Below are positions 3,879-29,837 of a stretch of DNA of 39,059 nucleotides, piece after piece. Position 1 is the first letter of the stretch; the number at the start of each line of letters is the position of its first letter. This stretch comes from Chloroflexota bacterium (lineage in GTDB: Bacteria > Chloroflexota > Dehalococcoidia > SZUA-161 > SpSt-899): contig JABMQN010000008.1 in NCBI GenBank assembly GCA_013203045.1, positions 1-39,059 of the forward strand, given 5' to 3'. The notes under the pieces are model-generated. The model was not told the origin of the DNA, made no database searches, and saw only the letters and a list, made by a program, of their open reading frames with translations. Position numbers and translations under genes: made by a program.

Positions 3879-4922
3879 ATGGCCGAGAGAGATATCTATC
3901 AGGAATTACTGGACATGATAAACAGGGAGGACGTGGTAGGATTGCCGGATACCCCGTCAATGCTGAAAGTTCTCCAATTGCAACTAACCCCCGAAGAGGC
4001 AGAACTGGCTCTTAAGATTGGTCTTGCGGGTGGAACGCTGGAGGAATTATCAGCCAAGTTGGGCATAGAGAAAGAGACACTATTTAAGAAATTGTGGACC
4101 ATGGCTGACAAAGGCACCGTGTGGATAGACCCGGGTGGTGTGAATAACCCCAATTGCAGGGTGCTTGGGGCTGCTGCTCCGGGATTAAGCGAAACTGGCA
4201 TCTGGGGGAATATCAGGTTTCCGTATGATGTCGAATTGGCCAAGAACATGCATCAGGTGATGTGGGAGTGGGCCAGGGATAAACTCTGCACACTTGGATT
4301 CCCCTTCGCACCTGTCTGGGCTCATCCGTGGGCGCTACCGGATGATGCGAAACCCGAAGAAAACCTGGCGGAATTTCTTAAGAGCCAAGAGCACTTCAGT
4401 GTATCGTTCTGTCCCTGCCGGCTCTCTCACTGGATTGCTGATCCCGGCAATCATTGCGAGCATATTCCAGAAACCTGTCTTCATACCGGAGATACCAGCC
4501 GATGGTGTGTAGAACATGGTCAGGGACGCGAGATCACCTATGAAGATGCTCTTGAACTTTTGAGGAAGACAAATGCCGATGGACTGGTTCATACCATCAA
4601 CATCAACGGTTTTATCTGCAATTGCTGTGATGACTGCTGCCCCCTGTTTATGGGGTTCCACAAATTGAACGTCAAGACGATGGTCCCATCTCCCTTCATA
4701 CCAAAGATCGATGAAGACACGTGTATTGCATGCGGAGACTGCGCAGACCTATGTCCGGTGAAGGCTGTAAAAGTTGAGAAAATTGCCACAGTCGATGGTG
4801 ATATCTGCATTGGATGCGGTGTATGTGTTACGCACTGTCCATCTGAATCTATGGCTCTGGTCAGAAGGCCTGATTCTGAAGTAACCCAGATTCCGGATGA
4901 TGTAAAACAGCATATGGGATAG
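3879..4922 (+). CDS. Cys-rich 4Fe-4S dicluster ferredoxin-like protein, ~345-aa family, copy 1
   Basis: wHTH-like N-terminus (TPEEAELALKIGLAGGTLEELSAKLGI), CPCRLSHW..., ICNCCDDCCPLF, then CIACGDCADLCP and CIGCGVCVTHCP. Confidence 0.8.
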   Translation: MAERDIYQELLDMINREDVVGLPDTPSMLKVLQLQLTPEEAELALKIGLAGGTLEELSAKLGIEKETLFKKLWTMADKGTVWIDPGGVNNPNCRVLGAAAPGLSETGIWGNIRFPYDVELAKNMHQVMWEWARDKLCTLGFPFAPVWAHPWALPDDAKPEENLAEFLKSQEHFSVSFCPCRLSHWIADPGNHCEHIPETCLHTGDTSRWCVEHGQGREITYEDALELLRKTNADGLVHTININGFICNCCDDCCPLFMGFHKLNVKTMVPSPFIPKIDEDTCIACGDCADLCPVKAVKVEKIATVDGDICIGCGVCVTHCPSESMALVRRPDSEVTQIPDDVKQHMG

Positions 4923-4966: not shown

Positions 4967-6001
4967 GTGGCAGAAAAGGATATCTATCAAGAAGTATTGG
5001 ATATGGTAAACCGTGAGGACATAGTCGGCTTACCGGATACCCCGTCGATGCTTAAGGTTCTGCAATTGCAATTCACACCTGAAGAAGCCGAGTTGTCTTT
5101 GAAGATAGGTCTAACTGGGGGAACTCTGGATGAGCTATCAGAGAAGACAGGGATAGCCAAAGATGAACTCAAGAAAAAGCTCTGGACCATGGCCGACAAA
5201 GGCACCATGTGGATCGACCCGAGGGGTGATAATCCGACCTATAGAGTATTGGGAGCTGCTGCTCCAGGGCTCATTGAAACAGGCATGTTCGGCAACATCC
5301 GCTTCCCCTATGATGTGGAACTGGGGAAAGCCCTTCACCCGGCAGTAGTCGAATGGGCCAGAGACCGGCTCTGCACCCTGGGTTTCCCTTTTGCGCCCAT
5401 CTGGGCTCACCCCTTCATTCTCCCGGATGATGCCAAACCTGAAGAGAACATCGCCGAATTTCTTAGGGGTCAGGATTATTTCAGCGTATCGTCATGTCCC
5501 TGTCGCCTCTCCCACTGGATAAGTGATCCGGGTAACCATTGTGAGCATATGTTGGAGACCTGCTTGCATTCTGGGGAAGCAGCACGGTGGTTTGTTCAAC
5601 ATAATCAAGGACGCGAGATTACCTACGAAGATGCTCTTGAACTGCTTAAAAAGGCGAACGCTGACGGGCTGGTACATTCCATCAATATCAACGGATTCAT
5701 ATGTAATTGTTGCACCGATTGCTGTCCCTTGTTCGTAGGCTTCTATGAGTTCAATACCAAAACTATGGTCCCCTCTCCATTCATACCGAAGATTGAAGAG
5801 GACGAATGCGTTGCTTGTGGGGATTGTGCTGATATCTGCCCCATGAAAGCTATTACGGTTGATCAAATTGCAGTCGTTGATCCAGATACATGCATTGGCT
5901 GTGGTGTGTGCATCACGCATTGCCCATCAGAAGCGATGGCATTTATGAGGAGACCGGAACAAGTCGAACTACCCGAAGACGTAGCCAAACACGTCGGGTA
6001 G
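4967..6001 (+). CDS. Cys-rich 4Fe-4S dicluster ferredoxin-like protein, ~345-aa family, copy 2
   Basis: GTG start after AAGGAGG; same architecture as copy 1: CPCRLSHW, ICNCCTDCCPLF, CVACGDCADICP, CIGCGVCITHCP. Confidence 0.8.
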   Translation: MAEKDIYQEVLDMVNREDIVGLPDTPSMLKVLQLQFTPEEAELSLKIGLTGGTLDELSEKTGIAKDELKKKLWTMADKGTMWIDPRGDNPTYRVLGAAAPGLIETGMFGNIRFPYDVELGKALHPAVVEWARDRLCTLGFPFAPIWAHPFILPDDAKPEENIAEFLRGQDYFSVSSCPCRLSHWISDPGNHCEHMLETCLHSGEAARWFVQHNQGREITYEDALELLKKANADGLVHSININGFICNCCTDCCPLFVGFYEFNTKTMVPSPFIPKIEEDECVACGDCADICPMKAITVDQIAVVDPDTCIGCGVCITHCPSEAMAFMRRPEQVELPEDVAKHVG

Positions 6002-6255: not shown

Positions 6256-7296
6256 ATGGCAGAGAAAGATGTTTATGAAGAACTGGCAAATATGTATCTT
6301 ACGGAAGATTTTGTCGGTATACCAACGACACCTGCTTTTATGAAGCTTCTTCACTTGCAGTTTACGCCGGAGGAAGCGGCTTTATCACTGAAGGTGCGGT
6401 TCGATGGCGGAACACTGGATGAATTATCCGGGAAAACCGGCATGGATAAGGACAAGCTTAAGGAGATGTTCTACACCATGGCGGACAAAGGCACTATATG
6501 GTTCGATCCCGGTGATGACGATCCCGTCTATAAAGCAGTGCTGGCCGCTGCACCCGGACTGGTTGAAACCGGCATCTGGGGCGGTATCCGGCATCACTAT
6601 GATGTTGAACTGGGCAAGGCACTTTACGAGGTTGTTGCCGAGTGGGGAAAGCAAACGTTGTGTAACCTGGGCTTTCCTTTTGCTCCGGTATGGGCGGCGC
6701 CATCCGCATTACCCGATGATGCGCTTCCGGAGGAGAACTTGGCTGAAGTACTTAGAGCGGAGGACCATTTCAGTGTAGCCCACTGCCCCTGCCGTACCAG
6801 CGCTCAACTTCACCATCCCGGCGAACACTGTGATCATTTAATTCAAACATGCCTTCACTCTGGCCCTGTCAGTCGCTGGACCTCCAAGTTTGGGCTGGCC
6901 AAAGAAATAACCTACGATGAGGCTATGGACCTGCTGAAAAAGGTCAATGAAGACGGACTTGTTCATACCCTCAACATAAACCACTGTGTTTGTAACTGCT
7001 GTAATGACTGTTGTCCTATCTTCACAGGGCAGCTCCAGCACGGTGCGCAGACAATCATCCCGTCACCGTTTGAGGCAACTGTAGATGAAGGAACGTGTAC
7101 TTCTTGCGGCGATTGTGCGGATGCGTGTCCAATGGGTGCAATCGCTGTAGAGGGATTCGCCGAAGTGAATCAAAGTCTGTGTATCGGGTGCGGAGTGTGT
7201 GTTACTCGATGCGATACAGGAGCTATGACATTGGTTCGACGGCCCAGCCCCGAAGAATCTCAGATCCCGGACGATGTCAAAGAGCACATGGCATAG
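6256..7296 (+). CDS. Cys-rich 4Fe-4S dicluster ferredoxin-like protein, ~345-aa family, copy 3
   Basis: Same architecture: CPCRTSAQ, CVCNCCNDCCPIF, CTSCGDCADACP, CIGCGVCVTRCD; RBS aggagg upstream. Confidence 0.8.
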   Translation: MAEKDVYEELANMYLTEDFVGIPTTPAFMKLLHLQFTPEEAALSLKVRFDGGTLDELSGKTGMDKDKLKEMFYTMADKGTIWFDPGDDDPVYKAVLAAAPGLVETGIWGGIRHHYDVELGKALYEVVAEWGKQTLCNLGFPFAPVWAAPSALPDDALPEENLAEVLRAEDHFSVAHCPCRTSAQLHHPGEHCDHLIQTCLHSGPVSRWTSKFGLAKEITYDEAMDLLKKVNEDGLVHTLNINHCVCNCCNDCCPIFTGQLQHGAQTIIPSPFEATVDEGTCTSCGDCADACPMGAIAVEGFAEVNQSLCIGCGVCVTRCDTGAMTLVRRPSPEESQIPDDVKEHMA

Positions 7297-8654: not shown

Positions 8655-9659
8655 ATGTCTGAAAATGATGTTTATGAAGAACTGGCTAAAATGATCGGCG
8701 AGGAAGATGTCGTGGGCATGCCGCCTACACCGGCGTTTATCGATGTTTTGCGATTGCAATTTGCCCCGGACGAAGCGGATTTGGCACTGAAAATTCATCT
8801 CTCCGGTGGTACTCTTGACGAGCTTTCCGAGCGACTGGGCATCGAAAAAACCAAGCTGTACGAGAAATTCATGGTCATGGCTGACAAAGGCACTATCATT
8901 TACGATCCGGCGGACGAGGACCCTGTTTACAGATGCGTGGGCATGACGGCCGGAGGCCTCACCGAAACTGGTGTCTGGGGAGGAATCCGGTTCCCTTATA
9001 CAGTGGAATTGGGCAAAGCTATCTATCGCGCCATGAGGGACCATTCCGAATTGGCCCTGGGTAAGCTGGGATTCCCTTACACACCAGTGTGGGCTGCCAA
9101 AATGGCCCTGCCGGAGGATGCCACTCCGGAAGAGGACCTTACCGAGGCAATCAAGGAAGCGGGTCACTGGAGCATCTCTCCATGTCCCTGCCGTATGGCC
9201 CGAGTACTCACGACTCCCGAAGATCCCTGCCAGCATATGTTGCATACATGCGTTCACACCGGTGCTCTGAGCAGGTGGGCAGTCAAACATGGAATGGCTC
9301 GTGAACTGACCCATGAACAAATGGTGGAACTACTGAGAGAGTGCAATGAAGATGGTCTGGTTCATACGATCAACATCTACGGGCAGATTTGTAATTGTTG
9401 CGAGGATTGCTGCGGTATTTTCGAAACATTCAAGATGGGGGCACCCACTTTCATTCCTTCCCCATTTATGGCGCAGGCTAATGAAGACACATGCACGGCC
9501 TGCGGTACCTGTGCAGAACGTTGCCCGGTGGATGCAATTGAGGTAGATGCCTTTGCCATCGTTAGCCAGGACAAATGTATTGGATGTGGGGTATGTGTTC
9601 CCACCTGTCCTGCCGATGCGATTAATCTGATTCGACGCCCCACACCTGAGCAAGCCTGA
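8655..9659 (+). CDS. Cys-rich 4Fe-4S dicluster ferredoxin-like protein, ~345-aa family, copy 4 (immediately upstream of AOR)
   Basis: CPCRMARV, ICNCCEDCCGIF, CTACGTCAERCP, CIGCGVCVPTCP; 22-nt gap to the AOR gene. Confidence 0.8.
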   Translation: MSENDVYEELAKMIGEEDVVGMPPTPAFIDVLRLQFAPDEADLALKIHLSGGTLDELSERLGIEKTKLYEKFMVMADKGTIIYDPADEDPVYRCVGMTAGGLTETGVWGGIRFPYTVELGKAIYRAMRDHSELALGKLGFPYTPVWAAKMALPEDATPEEDLTEAIKEAGHWSISPCPCRMARVLTTPEDPCQHMLHTCVHTGALSRWAVKHGMARELTHEQMVELLRECNEDGLVHTINIYGQICNCCEDCCGIFETFKMGAPTFIPSPFMAQANEDTCTACGTCAERCPVDAIEVDAFAIVSQDKCIGCGVCVPTCPADAINLIRRPTPEQA

Positions 9660-19194: not shown

Positions 19195-19977
19195 ATGATT
19201 GTCGGAGGATGTGACATCGGTTCCACCACTGGTAAAGCAGTGATTATGAAAGACGGGGAAATAATTGCAAGTACTATCATCCCCTCTACCACCAAACCGG
19301 AGGAAACGGCCCGCATGGCCATGGATGAAGCCTTAAAACAGGCGGATCTATCTTCAATTGATGATCTGGACTACATCGTGGGCACGGGTTACGGCCGGCT
19401 CAAAGTTCAATTTGCCAAAGAAAACATCTCGGAAATATCCTGTCATGCCCGGGGAGCTCACTGGATGAGTCCCACGGTAAGAACAGTAGTTGATATCGGT
19501 GGACAGGACTGCAAAGTAATGTCTATCAGCGATGAAGGCAAAGTCGTGGAATTCGTGATGAATGACAGATGCGCTGCCGGCACCGGCAGGTTTTTTGAAG
19601 GAATGGCCAGAGTGCTGCATTGCGGACTTGATGGTATATCATCCCTGGAAAATCAGGGGGCAGAACCGTCCACCATCACCAGCCAGTGCAGCGTGTTTGC
19701 CGAATCTGAAGTTGTTACCCTGATCAACGAAGGGAGCGACTTGAAAAACATCATCGCCGGAATCAACAATTCGGTATCAGGCCGCCTGAATTCGATGGTC
19801 CGAAAAGTTGGGTTGGTTGAAGATGTAGCTCTAACAGGCGGATGCGCCAAGAATGCGGGTCTGGCCAAAGCGCTGGAAAAACATTTAAAAGTAAGCGTGA
19901 AACAATTGCCCCATGACCCGCAAATAGCAGGTGCCGTGGGAGCGGCTCTAATCGCAGTAGAAAAGGCAGCAGGCTAG
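19195..19977 (+). CDS. Acyl-CoA dehydratase/reductase activase (BadF/BadG/BcrA/BcrD/HgdC ATPase family)
   Basis: GCDIGSTTGKAVIM, VVDIGGQDCKVM, NDRCAAGTGRFFE, LTGGCAKN. Confidence 0.93.
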   Translation: MIVGGCDIGSTTGKAVIMKDGEIIASTIIPSTTKPEETARMAMDEALKQADLSSIDDLDYIVGTGYGRLKVQFAKENISEISCHARGAHWMSPTVRTVVDIGGQDCKVMSISDEGKVVEFVMNDRCAAGTGRFFEGMARVLHCGLDGISSLENQGAEPSTITSQCSVFAESEVVTLINEGSDLKNIIAGINNSVSGRLNSMVRKVGLVEDVALTGGCAKNAGLAKALEKHLKVSVKQLPHDPQIAGAVGAALIAVEKAAG

Positions 19978-20004: not shown

Positions 20005-21150
20005 TTGGAAACAAACATCAAATCAAAAACGCTTGATGAATTCAAAACAATCACCGGAACCATGATCAATCCGGCAGTACAAGAATGGAAAGACAACGGG
20101 GGCAAGGTTATCGGGTATTTCTGCTGCAACATACCTGATGAAGTTATGACTGCCGCCGGAATACTTCCGTTACGCTTAAGAGGAACGGGCAGCACCGGAA
20201 CAGAGCTCTCGGATGCATTTTACTCCAGCATCAACTGCTCATTCCCTCGCCACGTTTTCAACATGGCTCTCAACCATGAATTCGACATTCTCGATGGGCT
20301 CATCGTTCCCAACAGTTGTGATCACATTCGTCGAATATACGATAACTGGCTCCGCCAACTGGATATCGGATTTCTTGAGATGTTCAACCTTCCCCGAAAG
20401 GTCGAAGAACCTCAGGTTCAGTGGTACAAAGATGAAGTGCATCTTCTGGTGGAAAAGCTCGAAAAGCAATTTGGAGTTGAGATAACTGAAGAGAAGCTCA
20501 AAAATGCCATAAAACTCCACAACGAAAACAGGCGGCTGTTAAAACAAATCTACGAACTGCGCAAAGTGGATAACCCTCCAATTACCGGCGGTCAGATGAT
20601 CGCAGTGATAGTGGCTGGCACCGCCATCCCCAGAGACAAGTACAACGAAATGCTTAAAGAACTGCTGGAAGATCTCAAGGGAGCCGAGGGCATCAAGGAT
20701 CATCGGGCACGACTGATGGTATTAGGCGGCATTCTTGACGACCCTGAATATATGGATATCCTTGAGGACCAGGGCGGACTGGTAGTTACCGATTCAATCT
20801 GTTTCGGAACTAGGCTTTTCTGGACCGAAGTCAGCGAAGAGGGCGACCCGTACGAAGCCATCGCCAGATACCAGATACAGCAACGGCCAACCTGCCCCCG
20901 CAGCTATGGGGATCAGCCCAAGAGAGCCCAATATCTTCTGGACATGATCAAAGAATTCAAGGTAGATGGGGTTATCGGCGAAAGACTTCTGTTCTGTGAC
21001 TCGTGGGTGGTCGAGCACTACATGAACGATCAGGACCTTAAAGAAGCCGGAGTTCCATTCCTGAAGCTGGACCGGGAGTACATCCTGAGCGGCAAGGGGC
21101 AACTACGAACCCGGGTTCAGGCATTCCTGGAAATGCTGGGAGGTAAATAA
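20005..21150 (+). CDS. 2-hydroxyacyl-CoA dehydratase / benzoyl-CoA reductase-like subunit (HgdB/BcrC-like), pair 1 subunit a
   Basis: GYFCCNIPDEVMTAAGILPLRLRGTGSTGTELSDAFYSSINCSFPRHVFNMAL...PNSCDHIRRIYDNW; TTG start. Confidence 0.88.
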   Translation: METNIKSKTLDEFKTITGTMINPAVQEWKDNGGKVIGYFCCNIPDEVMTAAGILPLRLRGTGSTGTELSDAFYSSINCSFPRHVFNMALNHEFDILDGLIVPNSCDHIRRIYDNWLRQLDIGFLEMFNLPRKVEEPQVQWYKDEVHLLVEKLEKQFGVEITEEKLKNAIKLHNENRRLLKQIYELRKVDNPPITGGQMIAVIVAGTAIPRDKYNEMLKELLEDLKGAEGIKDHRARLMVLGGILDDPEYMDILEDQGGLVVTDSICFGTRLFWTEVSEEGDPYEAIARYQIQQRPTCPRSYGDQPKRAQYLLDMIKEFKVDGVIGERLLFCDSWVVEHYMNDQDLKEAGVPFLKLDREYILSGKGQLRTRVQAFLEMLGGK

Positions 21151-22487
21151 TGGATAACACTGATCTTAGCACACTTGGTCGGAAAGAAGTTCTGGAAAAA
21201 TCACTGACCCGCTATAGGAAGGAGCGCGACTGGTTCCAGATGTTTCTGGACGCACTCAGTATGATGCCGGAACTGAGCGAGGAAGACATCCTCCAGCAAA
21301 AAATGCTCACCATCCTGCTAGAATCGAAACAAACAGTTCTGGATTGCGCTGAAAACAACAAACCGTTTATCGCTGGATACTTTTGCAATGCGCCTGAGGT
21401 TTTCCATGCCATGGACCTCCCCTGGTACATGCTTATGGAAACGCCCTTCTTAGCAGCCTCCGCACCCTATTTGGCAGATGATATCAAGGGAACAGAGGAA
21501 ATCGGGCTTGGCTCCGACCTGTGCACTGCCATCAGACTCCCGATTTACTACATCGAAACAGGGCAAATGCCCATCCCTTCGGCCGTTCTGGGATTGATCT
21601 ATCCCTGCGATGGCGCACCCATGCTGCATCAGGTAATGATGCACAACAAGGCATGGAAGGACGTTCCTGTATACGCCGCGGATCCGCCGTATACTTCGGA
21701 TGAACGTGCAATAGACTATTTCGCCGATGAACTCAAACGGATGGCTGAGTTTCTTCAGAAGCACACCGGACATTCACTGGATATGAAGAGGCTGGCGCAG
21801 GTCTGCGAAGACGGCAACAAGACATACAGCAAATGGCAGGAGTACAATGAGCTAAGGCGCGCGGTACCCTGTCCTCATGGTTGGAGCATAGGTGGGCCAC
21901 AGGCCTTTGCAGTAAGCCAGTGTTTTGTGGCCGGCGATCCCAAGTGCACCGACTGGTTCGAGCAACTGGTCAAGTGCGCCGAAATTCGGGTGAACGCCGG
22001 TGAAGGTATTCCCGGGGTAAAGGAAAGAATCCGCTACTTCTGGTTTGATATCATGCCTTACGGATGGATATTTGAATTGATGCCCTGGCTGGAAGAAGAA
22101 TGGGGCGCGATACTGACAATGGATATGTTCGGGAACTATCCATATACGCTAATTGATACTTCCAGTGAGGAGAAGATATGGAAGGGACTGGCCAAGAGAA
22201 ATCTTATTGACGCGCCCATGATCCGGCAGGCACGCGGCACAGCGGAGAACTTCTCTAACGATATCCGCCGGATTGTGAAAGACTACAAGATCGATTGTGT
22301 TATCTGGCCGGGGCACATGGGTCACAAGGATGGGTCGGCCGCCGGCGGAATCATGCGCCAGACCTGCCGGGAACTGGATGTTCCTTTCCTGCAAATCGGG
22401 TTGGATCTCTTCGACAGGGCATATACCAACCCTGATGAAGTAAAAGACAAGATATCGAAGTTCTTCACCTCGATGGGGCTGGGATAA
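21150..22487 (+). CDS. 2-hydroxyacyl-CoA dehydratase / benzoyl-CoA reductase-like subunit, pair 1 subunit b
   Basis: TAATG overlap with preceding CDS; 'NKPFIAGYFCNAPEVFHAMDLPWYMLMETP...IDCVIWPGHMGHKDGSAAGGIMRQTCRELDVPFLQIGLDLFD'. Confidence 0.85.
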   Translation: MDNTDLSTLGRKEVLEKSLTRYRKERDWFQMFLDALSMMPELSEEDILQQKMLTILLESKQTVLDCAENNKPFIAGYFCNAPEVFHAMDLPWYMLMETPFLAASAPYLADDIKGTEEIGLGSDLCTAIRLPIYYIETGQMPIPSAVLGLIYPCDGAPMLHQVMMHNKAWKDVPVYAADPPYTSDERAIDYFADELKRMAEFLQKHTGHSLDMKRLAQVCEDGNKTYSKWQEYNELRRAVPCPHGWSIGGPQAFAVSQCFVAGDPKCTDWFEQLVKCAEIRVNAGEGIPGVKERIRYFWFDIMPYGWIFELMPWLEEEWGAILTMDMFGNYPYTLIDTSSEEKIWKGLAKRNLIDAPMIRQARGTAENFSNDIRRIVKDYKIDCVIWPGHMGHKDGSAAGGIMRQTCRELDVPFLQIGLDLFDRAYTNPDEVKDKISKFFTSMGLG

Positions 22488-22642: not shown

Positions 22643-23788
22643 TTGGAAACCAAGTTGAAATCTAAGGCGCTTGATGAATTCATTCAAGTGGCCAGTACCA
22701 TCGCCAATCCCGAGATTCAAAAATGGAAGGATAACGGTGGCAAAATCATGGGTTACTTCTGTTCTGCTATGCCCTCTGAACTGATTACCGCCGCCGGCAT
22801 GCTCCCCTTCCGGCTAAGGGCTACCGGAAGCACCGGAACAGAGCTTTCGGATTCGTATTTCAGCAGCATCAACTGCACCTTTCCCCGACACGCGTTCAAC
22901 ATGGCGCTCAAAGGTGATTTCGATTTCATCGATGGGCTGGTAATTTTCAATAGTTGCGACCATATCCGTCGGGTTTATGATCACTGGATTCGCCAGCTAG
23001 ACACTCCTTTTGTTAAGATTCTGAGCCTTCCCAAGAAGTCGGGGGCTCAACAAGTGGAATGGTTCAGGAGCGAATTGGCTATTCTGAGAGAGAATATGGA
23101 AACCCAGTTCGGGGTGAAAATCACCGATGACAAACTAAAAGAAGCTATCAAAATCCATAACGAAAGCCGACGACTCTTGAGAGAACTCTATGAACTGCGT
23201 AAAAGTGATAATCCTCCCATTACCGGCGCTCAGACGATGGCCGTTACGGTGGCCAGTACAGCCATGCCTCCGGAGCGGTATAACCAGTTATTAAAAGAGC
23301 TTCTGGATGATGTCAAACGTGCGGAAGGAAACACCGATTATCGGGCGAGATTGATGATCCTCGGGGGCGAACTCGATAATCCGGAATTCCTTAAGGTTAT
23401 TGAAGACCTGGGCGCATTGGTGGTAACCGATTCGGTTTGCTTCGGTTCAAGACTACTGTGGAAGGATGTGGATGAAAGTATCGATGACCCCCTCACAGCC
23501 CTTGCTCAATATCAGGTTAACGAACGGCCTTCCTGTGCCCGCATGTTCACTGAATATGAAAAGAGAGCCGAATATGTTCATAGCATGCTTAGTGATTTCA
23601 AGGCTGACGGGGCCATTTTTGCACGGCTCACTTTCTGTGAGGTATGGGGATTTGAACAATACTCAATGATCAATGATTTTAAGGAGTGGGATATACCCCT
23701 TCTTTGTATCGACCACGAGTATACGTTGAGTGGAGTCGGACAGCTACGGACACGGGTCCAGGCATTCTTGGAAACGATGGGGAAATAG
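22643..23788 (+). CDS. 2-hydroxyacyl-CoA dehydratase / benzoyl-CoA reductase-like subunit, pair 2 subunit a
   Basis: TTG start; METKLKSKALDEF... collinear paralogue of 20005-21150. Confidence 0.88.
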   Translation: METKLKSKALDEFIQVASTIANPEIQKWKDNGGKIMGYFCSAMPSELITAAGMLPFRLRATGSTGTELSDSYFSSINCTFPRHAFNMALKGDFDFIDGLVIFNSCDHIRRVYDHWIRQLDTPFVKILSLPKKSGAQQVEWFRSELAILRENMETQFGVKITDDKLKEAIKIHNESRRLLRELYELRKSDNPPITGAQTMAVTVASTAMPPERYNQLLKELLDDVKRAEGNTDYRARLMILGGELDNPEFLKVIEDLGALVVTDSVCFGSRLLWKDVDESIDDPLTALAQYQVNERPSCARMFTEYEKRAEYVHSMLSDFKADGAIFARLTFCEVWGFEQYSMINDFKEWDIPLLCIDHEYTLSGVGQLRTRVQAFLETMGK

Positions 23789-23790
23789 AA

Positions 23791-25092
23791 ATGGATGAGA
23801 AGAAAGAAAGAAGTCTATCCAGAATAAGAGAAGAACTGGCCATGTATGAGCCTGTAGTCGAACTTCTAAAACTAGAGCCGGGGGAAATGGGTCATCTCCA
23901 GTTACCGATAGTAGAAAACATCGTTGAACAGCATAAAGGGACTATAGAATGTGTCGAGGAAGGGAAAACGTTTTTGGCCAGTCAGTTTACAAACCCGGTT
24001 GAGATTCTGACGGCCATGGATGTTCATTGGTATTTTCATATTCAGCAGCTTTTTGCTGCTAGCGGTAGTGGCGGCGGATTGCACACAGACGAAGATCTTG
24101 AAGGAGCTGATAAGCTCAATATACCCAGAGACTGCTGCACGCTCATCCGTCTGGGGCATTATCTCCAGGTTGCCGGATTGTATCCGATACCGACGGCTTA
24201 CCTTTCAATTACAGAGCCTTGTGACAGTATAGCTGGTTGGCATGCAGCTTTTATGCACCATCCGGATTGGCGTAATATCCCTGTCTTTGCACCGGACCCG
24301 CCCTATCACACCGACGAAAGGGCTATCGACTATTATGCCAGGCAGATGAGGGAAATGGTTGATTTCATCACTGAACACACCGGTCAAACGCTTGACATGG
24401 ACCGACTCAGAGAGACAGTCGAGGAAACGAATAAGGGTTATGCGTTGTGGATGGAATACAATGAAATCAGAAGGTCTTCACCAACTCCCCACAGCTACAC
24501 ATTACCTCTATCATGTTTCTTTCAGATCAATACTTTAGGAGCAGGTGACCCCAAGAAAACGCTCTGGTATAAAGACATTGTTGCCGATGCTGAGAGGCGA
24601 GTGAAAGAGAACAAACCCGAGTTCCCGAATCAGAAAATAAGGGTGTTCTGGTATGATATCCAACCCTTCTACTTTGGAGAAATCGTGAGTTGGCTGGAAC
24701 AGGAGTGGGGTGGAGTTATTGCAATGGATATGGTGAGCTATTGCCCCTATGAACTGATAGATACCTCCACTGAGGACAGTATGTTCCAGGGGCTTGCCAA
24801 GAGAGCTTTCCAACATGGACCCATGGTACACCAGGGACGGGGATTGGCAGAAAATGTTATCTATGATATAACTCGAATCGTAAAAGACTATAAAATTGAC
24901 TGCGTGATTTTCCCGGGCCATATGGGGCACAAGGATATGGCTGCCAGCAGCAGTATTATGAGGGAAACATGCCGGGAACTCGGTGTCCCGTTCCTCTACA
25001 TTGGGTTGGATGTAGCCGACCACCGATATACCACTGCGGATGAGATAAAGGATAGGATATCCCAGTTCTTTACCGCTATGGGTCTGGGATAA
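23791..25092 (+). CDS. 2-hydroxyacyl-CoA dehydratase / benzoyl-CoA reductase-like subunit, pair 2 subunit b
   Basis: Paralogue of 21150-22487 ('IDCVIFPGHMGHKDMAASSSIMRETCRELGVPFLYIGLDVAD'). Start at ATG 23791 just after the upstream stop; the 23686 ORF start lies inside the upstream gene. Confidence 0.85.
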   Translation: MDEKKERSLSRIREELAMYEPVVELLKLEPGEMGHLQLPIVENIVEQHKGTIECVEEGKTFLASQFTNPVEILTAMDVHWYFHIQQLFAASGSGGGLHTDEDLEGADKLNIPRDCCTLIRLGHYLQVAGLYPIPTAYLSITEPCDSIAGWHAAFMHHPDWRNIPVFAPDPPYHTDERAIDYYARQMREMVDFITEHTGQTLDMDRLRETVEETNKGYALWMEYNEIRRSSPTPHSYTLPLSCFFQINTLGAGDPKKTLWYKDIVADAERRVKENKPEFPNQKIRVFWYDIQPFYFGEIVSWLEQEWGGVIAMDMVSYCPYELIDTSTEDSMFQGLAKRAFQHGPMVHQGRGLAENVIYDITRIVKDYKIDCVIFPGHMGHKDMAASSSIMRETCRELGVPFLYIGLDVADHRYTTADEIKDRISQFFTAMGLG

Positions 25093-25111: not shown

Positions 25112-25882
25112 ATGTCCAAGTACGATGAACATATAGAAAACGTCGATAAGTATCTGCGAGGGCGGCAGGTGCGGGAGTTCAACTGCCCCCCTTCGGTCGA
25201 TGACCTGAAAAAGGATTTGCCGGTTCAAGTAGGTCCCAGATCCAATCCCGGAATAATCCTTCGATCAGATATGTTTGCTGAACTGGGCAACCCGGCCGAG
25301 GGCTCCAGCGGATTTATCGTATGGACCGAGGATACTTCGCTGGTTCGCGATGGCAGAATTACCCTCATTGGACCCGATATCCCGGATTTGGAAGGAGCCA
25401 GCGTGCCTTTCGGGCAGGTATTGATGATAGCCGGAGAAAAGCTCGATACCGAAGTCCAGGAGAGAATTGAAGAGTATCAACACATTTCCGATTACCTTGA
25501 AGGGTACATGGTTAGAAGCTCATCTCAAAGTATCTGGGGGAGAGTGAGTAAGGATTCTGTGGCCAAAGGTTTCAACATGGAGATATTGGGTAAAGCCTTG
25601 ATGATCAACATGAAATCCAATGTGCCTGAAATTGAAGCCATGGAAGTAGTCTTTGTAACCTCCAATAAGGATGATGTCAAACAACTGGGCGAGATCGCTG
25701 TTGAGGTTGATGATGTTAGGAAGGATATTATTAAGGCTGTCTGGAAAGAACGAGGGTATGATTTAGACTGTGATCTCGATTGCAACTCATGCGAATCCAA
25801 GGTAACTTGCGATGATATCAGGGATATAATCCGTGCTCAGAAGGAAAAGGGGACGGCTGAGATAGGCGGAAGCGAGGGATAG
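25112..25882 (+). CDS. Short CO dehydrogenase/acetyl-CoA synthase beta-subunit (CdhC/AcsB)-like protein
   Basis: 'FIVWTEDTSLVRDGRITLIGPDIPDLEGASVPFGQVLMIAGEKL...IWGRVSKDSVAKGF' resembles the CdhC/AcsB core; ends with Cys-rich DCDLDCNSCESKVTC instead of an A-cluster region. Confidence 0.65.
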   Translation: MSKYDEHIENVDKYLRGRQVREFNCPPSVDDLKKDLPVQVGPRSNPGIILRSDMFAELGNPAEGSSGFIVWTEDTSLVRDGRITLIGPDIPDLEGASVPFGQVLMIAGEKLDTEVQERIEEYQHISDYLEGYMVRSSSQSIWGRVSKDSVAKGFNMEILGKALMINMKSNVPEIEAMEVVFVTSNKDDVKQLGEIAVEVDDVRKDIIKAVWKERGYDLDCDLDCNSCESKVTCDDIRDIIRAQKEKGTAEIGGSEG

Positions 25883-25884
25883 AT

Positions 25885-26688
25885 ATGGCTGAGCCATCAC
25901 TTCAAAACAAAAACCTTTTTGCGGTGTGTGGCAAAGGTGGTGTAGGCAAAACTGCCATCACTGCCATGATGAGTCGCGTACTGGTTGAAAACGGTAAAGC
26001 CGGAAAACTGCTGGTAATAGATGCCGACCCTGCCATGGGCCTTTTAACTGCTCTGGGCATCCGGGTCAATCGTACTATGGGGCAGGTCCGCGAGGATATT
26101 ATTAGAACCTCACGTAGCGGCAAACAGCAAGATAAAGACCACATTATAGATTCACTCGACTATATGGCGTTTGAGGCACTCGAAGAACTGGATGATTATG
26201 CTCTGCTGGCTATGGGACGCACCGAAACGCTGGGCTGCTATTGCCCGGTCAACACCCTTTTGCGAGGAACCATTGAAACCCTATCGAAAAGTTTCGATAC
26301 TATTCTTATTGATGGTGAAGCAGGATTAGAGCAAATTAACCGGCAAGTGGTTCGTCGATTAAACACACTTATCATCGTCTCGGATGCGACTGCACGTGGT
26401 ATTGAGACGGCAGAGATGATCAAAGATATGGTGGAAAACGATAAAGTGATCCAGTGTGAAAGACTCGGATTGATCTTTAACCGTGTTTCCAGCAACGAGG
26501 ACCTGCTCAGAAAAGCGGTGCAGAAGATCGGTCTTGAGCTTTTTGGAATAATTCCTCAGGATGAAAACATCGCGTATCATGATTTGGTGGCAAAGCCAAT
26601 TACTGAATTGCCAGCCGATTCGCCAGGCCTTGTTGCTGTCCGTGACATTGTAGAGAATGCGATCGGAATTAAATCGCATATATCTTGA
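25885..26688 (+). CDS. CooC-type / MinD-family P-loop ATPase
   Basis: FAVCGKGGVGKTAITAMMSRVL (deviant Walker A), LLVIDADPAMGLLTALGI, ETLGCYCPVNTLLR, ILIDGEAGLEQINRQV. Confidence 0.85.
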   Translation: MAEPSLQNKNLFAVCGKGGVGKTAITAMMSRVLVENGKAGKLLVIDADPAMGLLTALGIRVNRTMGQVREDIIRTSRSGKQQDKDHIIDSLDYMAFEALEELDDYALLAMGRTETLGCYCPVNTLLRGTIETLSKSFDTILIDGEAGLEQINRQVVRRLNTLIIVSDATARGIETAEMIKDMVENDKVIQCERLGLIFNRVSSNEDLLRKAVQKIGLELFGIIPQDENIAYHDLVAKPITELPADSPGLVAVRDIVENAIGIKSHIS

Positions 26689-26808: not shown

Positions 26809-28668
26809 GTGGGAACTTTTCAAGGTAAGATACTTGAGGTAAACCTGACCAGTGGGACTATTGGTGAATCCATGGTTGACAAGGATATATTAAGAAAATA
26901 CATCGGCGGGAGCGGCCTGGCAGCAAAACTGTTTTTCGATTGTGTATCTCTGGATGTTGAGCCTTTATCACCGGATAATGTGATGTATGTAATGGCAGGG
27001 CCTCTTGGTGGCACGGCCATGCCGGGCGGGTCCCGGTTTTCCGTTTGTGCCAAGTCGCCTCTGACCACCATGTGGGGCGAGAGTTCCTGCGGAGGCACGT
27101 TCGCGGCCTGGCTTCGTTCTGCCGGCTATGATGGCATTGCTATTAAAGGGGCTTCAGCCAAACCTGTATGTTTGGTAATTCAGGATGGAAAGGCAGAAAT
27201 CAAAGATGCCGCTGATCTCTGGGGCAAAGGCACTTATGATACTATCGATACTCTCAGGGAACAAAACGGCGGAAAAACCAAAGCCAGTGTCCTGAGTATT
27301 GGCCAGGCCGGGGAAAACCAGGTACGATATGCGGCTATTGCCAATGAGAAAAGGGACTTTCTTGGCCGCACCGGTATGGGCGCGGTGATGGGATCTAAAA
27401 AACTCAAAGCTATTGTAGCTATTGGAACCGGCAAAGTAGACGCGGCGGTGCCGGATGTTTTTGCGGAGAAAAGAAAACAGTTTACTGAGAATGCCAAAGG
27501 CCATTTCATAGTTGATATCGTTAAGGCTGGCGGTACCAATGGAGCGCTGGATATTGGTGCCATGATGGGTGATCTGCCGGGCAAGAATTGGGTGATGGGC
27601 GATATGAGCGCATATGGGCCCAAGATTGGCGGCGGGGTGCTCAACAGCGAGCAATTCCTGACTGGCACCGATCAATGCCACGGCTGTCTGGTGAACTGCA
27701 AGCGAGTTGTCAAAAAGGAGAATGGTTCATACCCGCTCAAAGGAACGGCTGGACCGGAATACGAAGGTGTTGCCAGTTTCGGTTCCTTGCTGATGATCGA
27801 TGACATGGCGGCAGTCATAAAGATGAATGAGATGTGTAACGACTACGGCATGGATGTTATCTCCTGCGGTTCTACCATTGCCATGGTCATGGATTGTGTT
27901 GAGCAGGGCATTATCGGTTCAGGGGATACCGATGGTGTGGAGTTTAAGTGGGGTAACATCGATGCGGTTATAAAAACAATCGAGAATATCGCTAACCGCC
28001 AAGGATTCGGAGATACCCTGGCAGAGGGCAGCAAGCGTGCCGCTGAGAAGATCGGCAAGAATGCTTCCGATTATGCAGTTGAGGTGAAAGGTATGGAAGT
28101 GCCCATGCATGACCCCCGGGCTTTTCATAGTATGGGACTATCCTACGCTACAAACATTCGCGGTGCTTGCCATACAAACGATTTGAACTATAGCGCTGAA
28201 CAGGGTATTCTTGTCTGGCCGGAAATAGGCATCAATGGCGGATATGATCAGAAGTCGAGTGTGGGCAAGGCTGAGTTGACAGTGATTTCTCAAAATTTGG
28301 GGCAGGTTATCAACTCGGTGCCGATATGCTACCTTCTTATGTCTGTAATCACCTCAGCAGAACTGGTGGAACTTACGAACGCGGCCAGCGGTTTCGACTA
28401 TACACTGGAAGAACTGATGACCTGTGGCGAAAGGATATGGATGCTCAAACGGGGCATGAACAATCTCATGGGTATCACTGCTGCGGATGACACCTTGCCG
28501 AAGCAAATACTGACTCCTCCTCCAGATGGGGCTGCTGCCGGTTCGGTGCCTGATTTGAAGCTTATGTTGAAGGAATTCTACGAAATCAGAAAGCTGGAAT
28601 CCAACGGCCGCCCCGGCAAGGAAAAGCTGGAATCTCTGGGATTGGGCGATCTGGCTGCCAAGCTCTAA
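26809..28668 (+). CDS. Aldehyde:ferredoxin oxidoreductase (tungsten AOR family), second copy
   Basis: GTG start; GTFQGKILEVNLTSGTIGESMVDKDILRKYIGGSGLAAKLFFD; TDQCHGCLVNCKRVV; late PICYLLMSV. Confidence 0.92.
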   Translation: MGTFQGKILEVNLTSGTIGESMVDKDILRKYIGGSGLAAKLFFDCVSLDVEPLSPDNVMYVMAGPLGGTAMPGGSRFSVCAKSPLTTMWGESSCGGTFAAWLRSAGYDGIAIKGASAKPVCLVIQDGKAEIKDAADLWGKGTYDTIDTLREQNGGKTKASVLSIGQAGENQVRYAAIANEKRDFLGRTGMGAVMGSKKLKAIVAIGTGKVDAAVPDVFAEKRKQFTENAKGHFIVDIVKAGGTNGALDIGAMMGDLPGKNWVMGDMSAYGPKIGGGVLNSEQFLTGTDQCHGCLVNCKRVVKKENGSYPLKGTAGPEYEGVASFGSLLMIDDMAAVIKMNEMCNDYGMDVISCGSTIAMVMDCVEQGIIGSGDTDGVEFKWGNIDAVIKTIENIANRQGFGDTLAEGSKRAAEKIGKNASDYAVEVKGMEVPMHDPRAFHSMGLSYATNIRGACHTNDLNYSAEQGILVWPEIGINGGYDQKSSVGKAELTVISQNLGQVINSVPICYLLMSVITSAELVELTNAASGFDYTLEELMTCGERIWMLKRGMNNLMGITAADDTLPKQILTPPPDGAAAGSVPDLKLMLKEFYEIRKLESNGRPGKEKLESLGLGDLAAKL

Positions 28669-28754: not shown

Positions 28755-28820
28755 CCGTTCATGCTGAGCCAGTCGAAGTATGAACCCGTTCCCCTTCGAC
28801 AAGCTCAGGGCGAACGCTTT
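28755..28820. repeat. Palindromic intergenic repeat of the 'TTCGACAAGCTCAGGGCGAACG' type
   Basis: cgttcatgctgagccagtcgaagtatgaac ... cgttccccttcgacaagctcagggcgaacg, imperfect inverted repeat. Confidence 0.75.
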
Positions 28821-28848
28821 TGTATATCATATTTTGGAATTTGTCAAA

Positions 28849-29568
28849 ATGCTCACCGAACAAGAACTGCAACGATACAAAAGGCAACTGATGATTCCTG
28901 ATTGGGGCGAAGAAGGTCAGGAGAGGCTCAAAGGATCCAGAGTGGTGGTAGCTGGGGCAGGTGGACTTGGTTCAGTGGTGCTGACTTACCTGGCGGTTGC
29001 CGGTGTGGGTTCGATTCGAATCATTGATAACGATGAAGTGGATCTCAGTAATCTGAATCGGCAGATACTGCACACGGATGGCAATATCGGGAAGGCGAAG
29101 GTTGATTCGGCAAGGGAAAAACTGCAGGCCCTGAACCCGAATGTTGCAATTGAGACCGTTTCTGATGGTATCGACGAAGGGAATGTCTATGAGCTGGTTG
29201 AAGACAGACTTATAATTGATGCGCTGGACAATTTGGAGGCCAGGCTCTTGTTGAACAAAGCGGCCCTCAAGGCAAATCTCCCGCTGTTTCATGGTGCAGT
29301 TTATGGGTTTGAAGGCCGGGCGACAACACTGATACCCGGGAAAACACCCTGTTTGCGGTGTCTTTATAAAGGCAGTTTATCGGGTGAAATCCCGGTAGTT
29401 GGTGCCACGCCCGGAGTAATCGGGTGTATTCAGGCCACTGAAGTGATCAAGTATATCCTGGGTCTTGGCGAGTTGCTCACCAACAGACTGCTTGCCTATG
29501 ATGGACTCAATATGAGTTTCAGTGAAGTCAAGCTGAAAAGAGATCTCAATTGTGAGGAATGCCAGTGA
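28849..29568 (+). CDS. ThiF/MoeB/HesA-family adenylyltransferase (E1-like)
   Basis: MLTEQELQRYKRQLMIPDWGEEGQERL, VVVAGAGGLGSVVLTYLAVAGVG, DNDEVDLSNLNRQ, Zn pairs CLRC and CEEC. ORF-track start 28780 lies in the intergenic repeat. Confidence 0.9.
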   Translation: MLTEQELQRYKRQLMIPDWGEEGQERLKGSRVVVAGAGGLGSVVLTYLAVAGVGSIRIIDNDEVDLSNLNRQILHTDGNIGKAKVDSAREKLQALNPNVAIETVSDGIDEGNVYELVEDRLIIDALDNLEARLLLNKAALKANLPLFHGAVYGFEGRATTLIPGKTPCLRCLYKGSLSGEIPVVGATPGVIGCIQATEVIKYILGLGELLTNRLLAYDGLNMSFSEVKLKRDLNCEECQ

Positions 29569-29837
29569 GTGTTACAGTTACCATGTCAGATCTTTTGCGT
29601 AGAGCTACCGGACAGAGCGAACCTGTACAGGTATCGGCTGCTAGTTCGCTGGAATGCGTGCAAGAAGTGGCAAACCGGTTCCCGATATTGAAGAAATGGC
29701 TATATGACGAAGAAACCAAACTGAAACCACAAGTCTGGTTGAGTTTGAATGGGGAAAGAATTTACGAAGATGAATTCACCAGAATGCTTAAAGATGGTGA
29801 TGAGCTTTCGATAATGTTAGCCGTTTTAGGTGGATGA
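29559..29837 (+). CDS. MoaD/ThiS-family ubiquitin-like sulfur carrier protein
   Basis: 92 aa, '...DGDELSIMLAVLGG' with terminal Gly-Gly; overlaps the ThiF-like gene stop. Confidence 0.88.
   Translation: MPVSVTVTMSDLLRRATGQSEPVQVSAASSLECVQEVANRFPILKKWLYDEETKLKPQVWLSLNGERIYEDEFTRMLKDGDELSIMLAVLGG

Follow-up and report, generated by a model that had tools for sequence, protein, structure and literature searches.

Gene organization of the locus

We analysed a stretch of 39,059 nucleotides (hereafter the window) from the genome of a Chloroflexota bacterium of the class Dehalococcoidia. Its forward strand carries a gene cassette that begins with a class-I activase (19195-19977; BCR/acyl-CoA dehydratase type, ASKHA ATPase; PF01869, 207 bits; TIGR00241, 260 bits). 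The activase gene is followed by two copies of an enzyme pair that resembles 2-hydroxyacyl-CoA dehydratase (HAD) and benzoyl-CoA reductase (BCR), here called HGD-D. The first comprises subunit A (20005-21150; PF06050, 314 bits), with six cysteines (C40, C78, C105, C266, C297 and C331), and subunit B (21150-22487; PF06050, 139 bits), with C125, C153 and His392, the latter within a PGHMGHKD motif. The second comprises subunit A (22643-23788; PF06050, 314 bits), in which the six cysteines are kept, and subunit B (23797-25092; PF06050, 166 bits), which also has the PGHMGHKD motif. Then come a gene encoding a 256-aa protein, here called tACS (25112-25882), and, in tandem on the same strand and separated by 2 bases, a gene encoding a 267-aa CooC-type ATPase (25885-26688).

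Apart from tACS, no CODH or ACS (acetyl-CoA synthase) gene was found in the window, as the initial annotation had stated. At the scale of the genome this no longer applies: a full-length ACS of 742 aa is encoded with CoFeSP genes on another contig (G000:C35), and a CODH/ACS-type CooC lies beside a methyltransferase-like gene on contig C209 (gene names read from sequence in both cases). This genome is assembled in 277 contigs and is 92.6% complete. In the order to which the window belongs, genomes with tACS usually hold a normal full-length ACS too.

Downstream of the cassette, an aldehyde ferredoxin oxidoreductase-like (AOR) gene was identified on the same strand (26809-28668; PF01314/PF02730). 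In one relative (G008:C189, L152), the end of a clade-II tACS gene at a contig edge is also followed by an AOR gene, so the AOR is possibly a member of the pathway. Behind the AOR gene lie a ThiF-like gene and a gene for a 92-aa MoaD-like protein (28780-29837); a ThiF homologue also trails tACS-CooC in L066 and L127. The window additionally encodes four paralogous Cys-rich dicluster ferredoxin-like proteins of 334-347 aa (3879-4922, 4967-6001, 6256-7296 and 8655-9659). Homologues of these proteins recur beside HGD-D/CooC loci, and they may act as electron donors. A 340-aa dicluster ferredoxin-like protein lies near the HGD-D-CooC genes of G000:C173 (L107:6549-9732) and G558:C349 (L129), directly downstream in L129.

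tACS corresponds to the A2 domain of acetyl-CoA synthase

The CdhC/AcsB-like core initially proposed for the 256-aa protein was recovered by a profile search. PF03598 covers residues 36-186 (25217-25669; the CdhC part, i.e. the CoA-binding A2 or middle domain of ACS) with 86.2 bits for a cut-off of 24 (E = 2.8e-24), and this match was found in all 31 aligned members of the family. Solved ACS/CdhC chains match tACS with E-values down to 3.7e-23, the alignments starting at residues 29-41 and extending up to residue 229. Against the CdhC equivalog model, tACS covers the first 193 of 460 positions and scores 105.7 for a cut-off of 356. The structural comparison suggested at the outset gave the same picture. 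The AlphaFold2 model has a mean pLDDT of 88 and a pTM of 0.81 (60-79 pLDDT in the Cys tail), and Foldseek returned only ACS entries below E = 0.001 (E = 1.5e-15 to 4e-15), the best fits having an rmsd of 2.2-2.5 Å over about 170-184 columns with 32-34% identity.

The Cys-rich end noted in the initial annotation, DCDLDCNSCESKVTC, is indeed there. It contains the motif C220-x3-C224-x2-C227-x5-C233 (25769-25810), placed by alignments of the family and of ACS, and these four cysteines (window numbering) are conserved in the tACS family: they are invariant in 12 close members, and the first one is missing in the Jordarchaeia. The segment CNSCESKVTC of tACS aligns without gap with CQSFAPTHVC of ACS (18 ACS sequences compared). 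C224 and C233 fall on the A-cluster Fe-S cysteines C509 and C518 of Moorella thermoacetica ACS, and, across a small gap, C220 matches the first A-cluster cysteine (C506); the Moorella numbering is that of the alignment with solved chains. Of the four cysteines that hold the A-cluster Fe-S unit, three are kept in the tail of tACS, together with a new one. The latter, C227, stands at the position of Phe512, which forms the CO alcove of ACS (PMC11474084, which also gives the ACS domain borders). The nickel ligands CGC, which 17 of these 18 ACS sequences carry, have no counterpart in tACS in this alignment, and the A1 and A3 domains of ACS are absent. The sequence thus shows tACS to be a stand-alone A2 domain whose Cys4 tail stems from the A-cluster nest and lacks the Ni-binding CGC. 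Compared with ACS/CdhC (AcsB; M. thermoacetica 1oao, M. thermophila 9c0s), it is alike in the A2 fold and the three A-cluster Fe-S cysteines; it differs by the loss of A1, A3 and CGC, by the replacement of Phe512 by Cys, and by its partners, which are HGD-D and activase genes rather than CODH/CoFeSP.

Relatives of tACS were found in GTDB contigs with the family alignment, while a single-sequence scan gave none. They are mostly 239-282 aa long, share 31-53% identity, and occur in the order and class of the window and beyond: in GTDB records, Dehalococcoidia, Deltaproteobacteria, 'Proteobacteria', Binatota, Actinomycetes, Desulfatitalea and Jordarchaeia (Asgard). As these genes form a family of uniform length with intact ORFs, the word 'truncated' of the initial annotation does not hold if it means a damaged ACS. 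A decayed ACS and CooC stranded beside unrelated genes would explain the loss of two of the three ACS domains, but this is scarcely credible given the intact, conserved ORFs, the four conserved cysteines, a neighbourhood kept across distant bacteria and Asgard archaea, and the presence of a full-length ACS at another site of these genomes.

tACS is associated with HGD-D enzymes rather than with CODH/ACS

We compared the window with 30 GTDB loci (31 loci in total). The position of tACS/CooC outside any CODH/ACS operon, first noted in the window, was observed in all 31. Conserved adjacency with HAD-like genes, which the initial annotation proposed to look for, was found in 28 of the 31 loci, where HGD-D genes adjoin tACS. 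The three others are two contig edges (L057 and L070) and a 4-kb Jordarchaeum contig carrying CooC (L069). The activase is present in most loci and CooC is adjacent in 18 of the 31. No CODH or CoFeSP gene was seen beside tACS in the loci with listed flanks and, conversely, none of the 28 loci of full-length ACS examined, most of them over +/-1.5 kb, had HGD-D genes nearby. Membership of tACS in a CODH/ACS operon is therefore ruled out, its neighbours being HGD-D and activase genes. With a strong profile match, and relatives that carry no adjoining full CODH/ACS genes, the initial reading of a repurposed pair stands.

tACS genes beside an HGD-D pair are found in Chloroflexota, proteobacteria, Binatota, Actinomycetes and Jordarchaeia, with two layouts. 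Clade I presents the activase, HGD-D A and B, tACS and CooC. Clade II presents an acyl-CoA dehydrogenase, HGD-D A and B, usually the activase, a 147-aa protein and tACS; in these loci (L071-L078) there is no adjacent CooC and the B subunit is of the Cys type. The 147-aa protein precedes clade-II tACS in L071 (2458-2898), L072 (7557-7997), L073 (7557-7997), L075 (7539-7997), L077 (4414-4854) and L078 (1340-1777); the L073 copy was scanned and gave no Pfam match. In the Jordarchaeia (L067, L069 and L070), tACS has only three tail cysteines, and L067 adds HGD-D genes, two activases and CooC. These archaeal loci suggest a transfer between domains.

The window holds the gene set of BCR/HAD systems, i.e. 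two HGD-D subunits and a BcrAD-type activase; NF040772 scores are below cut-off. Subunit A copy 1 matches BzdN (E = 1.3e-50) with all six cysteines aligned with BzdN cysteines, and six cysteines hold the [8Fe-9S] (double-cubane) cluster of BzdN (PMC11971306). Each of these positions is conserved in 25-27 of 26-27 sequences, L061 lacking three of them. The B subunits of the window do not have the three-Cys active-site [4Fe-4S] set of BCR/HAD; they have Cys, Cys and His. His392 of copy 1 aligns with Cys380 of BzdO and with the SCK cysteine of HadB, and both B subunits of the window (21150-22487 and 23797-25092) have His where the third Cys of the active-site cluster would be. The motif P-G/A-HMGHKD was found in B subunits of all 30 orthologous loci. 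At this third position, the window and its orthologues have His, and clade II and the Jordarchaeia have Cys. The His-type B subunits would thus be predicted to ligate their cluster by two cysteines and one histidine. The His-type B is not a strict cause of the presence of CooC, as L062, L063, L066 and L067 pair CooC with a Cys-type B. Relative to BzdNO(PQ), HadBC(I) and the double-cubane cluster protein, the cassette shares the paired HGD-D subunits with activase and the BzdN-type six-Cys A subunit, and differs by the Cys-Cys-His active-site cluster of B and by the added tACS and CooC.

CoA esters are the substrates of HGD-D enzymes (PMC11971306), and the neighbouring genes (acyl-CoA dehydrogenase, thiolase, ChsH2-type OB protein and acyl-CoA ligases) suggest a CoA-ester substrate. 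In L049, L051 and L054, ChsH2-type OB-fold, thiolase-like and acyl-CoA dehydrogenase genes lie by the cassette and resemble steroid side-chain degradation sets.

Co-occurrence and copy number

Among 393 genomes of the class of the window, a His-type B gene was detected in 23 and tACS in 26, with both in 21 (Fisher P = 5e-28, inflated by the relatedness of the genomes). The two genomes with a His-type B and without tACS (G540 and G558; 72% and 85% complete) also lack the cassette activase. All 24 genomes with a cassette-grade CooC have tACS (P = 2e-36, likewise inflated by relatedness). In addition, distances of tACS correlate with those of subunit A, the activase and CooC (0.85-0.89). By sequence, tACS and CooC are inherited together with an HGD-D pair and its activase.

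The genes of the cassette differ in copy number. In the genome of the window, four His-type B genes on three contigs were found for one tACS. Several other genomes carry 2-4 B genes for one clade-I tACS and one activase; in the sampled relatives, the activase is 70-78% identical, single and located at the tACS locus. In this clade, activase, tACS and CooC are single-copy, with up to four His-type B genes per genome. As judged from these gene counts, one activase-tACS-CooC set accompanies several enzyme pairs with a Cys-Cys-His B subunit. A link between tACS and the dehydratase-type (HGD-D) enzyme is very probable, and conserved adjacency together with genome-level co-occurrence supports the repurposing toward the adjacent dehydratase-type system proposed initially.

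CooC also occurs with HGD-D genes lacking tACS

The identification of the second gene of the pair as a CooC-type ATPase was corroborated by a match with CooC of C. hydrogenoformans (PDB 3kje, E = 6.8e-11), by conserved residues and by a tree that places it in a cassette clade. It carries the P-loop GKGGVGKT and a CxC metal-site motif (GCYCP, residues 118-120; 26236-26244), and K17, K22, C118 and C120 are invariant in 19 of 19 CooC sequences. Cassette CooCs are 36-39% identical to CooCs of CODH/ACS operons. In the tree, they form with two paralogues a single group, sister to the CODH/ACS-operon CooCs, the support for the joint group being 100/98.

One of these paralogues lies directly behind another HGD-D pair in the genome of the window (G000:C173), with the same arrangement in G558:C349, and the second lies behind an activase (G003:C2). 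No tACS was detected by the family HMM at these three loci. CooC thus goes with HGD-D systems even where tACS is missing, and a role of CooC as maturase of tACS alone is weakened. In comparison with the CooC/AcsF nickel-insertion ATPases (3kje), the cassette CooC shares the deviant Walker A motif GKGGVGKT and CxC; it differs by its own clade and by its place behind HGD-D/activase genes, with or without tACS.

Possible roles of the activase-tACS-CooC set

We tentatively favour, as the leading interpretation and at somewhat less than an even chance, a shared activation/maturation module, formed by activase, tACS and CooC, for BCR/HAD-like HGD-D enzymes. AcsF inserts nickel into ACS in an ATP-dependent manner (Gregg 2016, cited in PMC10134865). 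CooC would recognise tACS much as AcsF recognises ACS, and would spend ATP on loading metal into the B-subunit cluster or assembling it there. The tail of tACS would bind a [4Fe-4S] cluster, and tACS would dock on the enzyme via its CoA-binding face, as an adaptor or a cluster carrier. The activase would then inject low-potential electrons, with turnover on the acyl-CoA substrate. A maturation module is preferred over a fixed subunit because several enzyme pairs go with a single copy of the set and CooC follows HGD-D. The same single-copy pattern beside multiple enzyme pairs tilts the initial alternative between metallocluster assembly and CoA-ester handling toward assembly/activation.

Several points argue against a maturation module. 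Clade II has no adjacent CooC and a Cys-type B. The single-copy pattern would also be expected of a non-stoichiometric catalytic role such as electron relay or substrate delivery, as it is for the activase. In the tACS model, the tail is predicted with only moderate confidence. Moreover, BzdNO was produced heterologously and its structure solved with its clusters, which we read as including the double-cubane (PMC11971306), so BCR-type clusters seem not generally to need tACS/CooC. For this reason, and since L061 keeps tACS and CooC despite three lost A-subunit cysteines, CooC-tACS is less likely to be a double-cubane builder.

Close behind comes a possible role of tACS as an accessory subunit, to which we give about one chance in three: tACS would bind the CoA moiety of substrate or product, its [4Fe-4S] tail would relay electrons from activase/ferredoxin to HGD-D, and CooC would mature the tACS site only. 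A2 has been seen interacting with CoA (PMC12289521, citing the C. autoethanogenum structure), HGD-D enzymes work on CoA esters (PMC11971306), C220/C224/C233 are conserved and aligned with A-cluster Fe-S ligands, and clade II retains tACS without an adjacent CooC. However, a single tACS for up to four enzyme pairs per genome and the related CooCs found by HGD-D without tACS fit this role poorly.

The metal concerned may be nickel, as a possibility: it is the known metal of CooC (Gregg 2016, cited in PMC10134865), yet tACS no longer has the residues that bind Ni in ACS. It is rather unlikely that the Cys2His active-site cluster takes up Ni or a hetero-metal via the CooC-tACS module, which would make the enzyme a Ni-Fe-S CoA-ester reductase or dehydratase. 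A nickel centre of tACS itself is more doubtful still. The tACS-CooC pair would then be a minimal AcsF-ACS pair for a separate reaction, e.g. acyl transfer, and the HGD-D adjacency would reflect a common pathway. CooC keeps CxC and the P-loop, its nearest non-cassette relatives are CODH/ACS-operon CooCs, and A-cluster-derived cysteines are retained in tACS; but the CGC Ni ligands and the entire A3 domain are lost, the alcove Phe is replaced by Cys, and adjacency to HGD-D and activase is near-exclusive.

Probable reuse of an acetyl-CoA synthase domain outside carbon fixation

The component families of the cassette are already known. No description of the tACS family or of this gene arrangement was found in the literature searched, which mostly excluded subscription papers, and we know of no report of the combination of tACS, CooC and HGD-D. 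A parallel is the putative isoprene reductase operon of Acetobacterium (IsrA with HypA/HypB), which likewise joins a reductase with conserved nickel metallochaperone genes; these genes served to infer their target (PMC10134865). That operon differs from the cassette in its unrelated chaperones and in having no ACS-derived protein.

On the basis of gene content and conservation, tACS is probably a helper gene that anaerobic bacteria and Asgard archaea have conserved for a BCR/dehydratase-like enzyme, and not carbon-fixation machinery. The CdhC profile alone would misassign tACS genes to the Wood-Ljungdahl pathway. For an enzyme of the BCR/HAD family, the cassette predicts a new Cys2His cluster ligation as well as a step devoted to maturation or activation. 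Outside carbon fixation, in a CoA-ester enzyme system of uncultured anaerobes and Asgard archaea, a module taken from one of the most ancient carbon-fixation enzymes would have been put to new use along with its metal-inserting ATPase.
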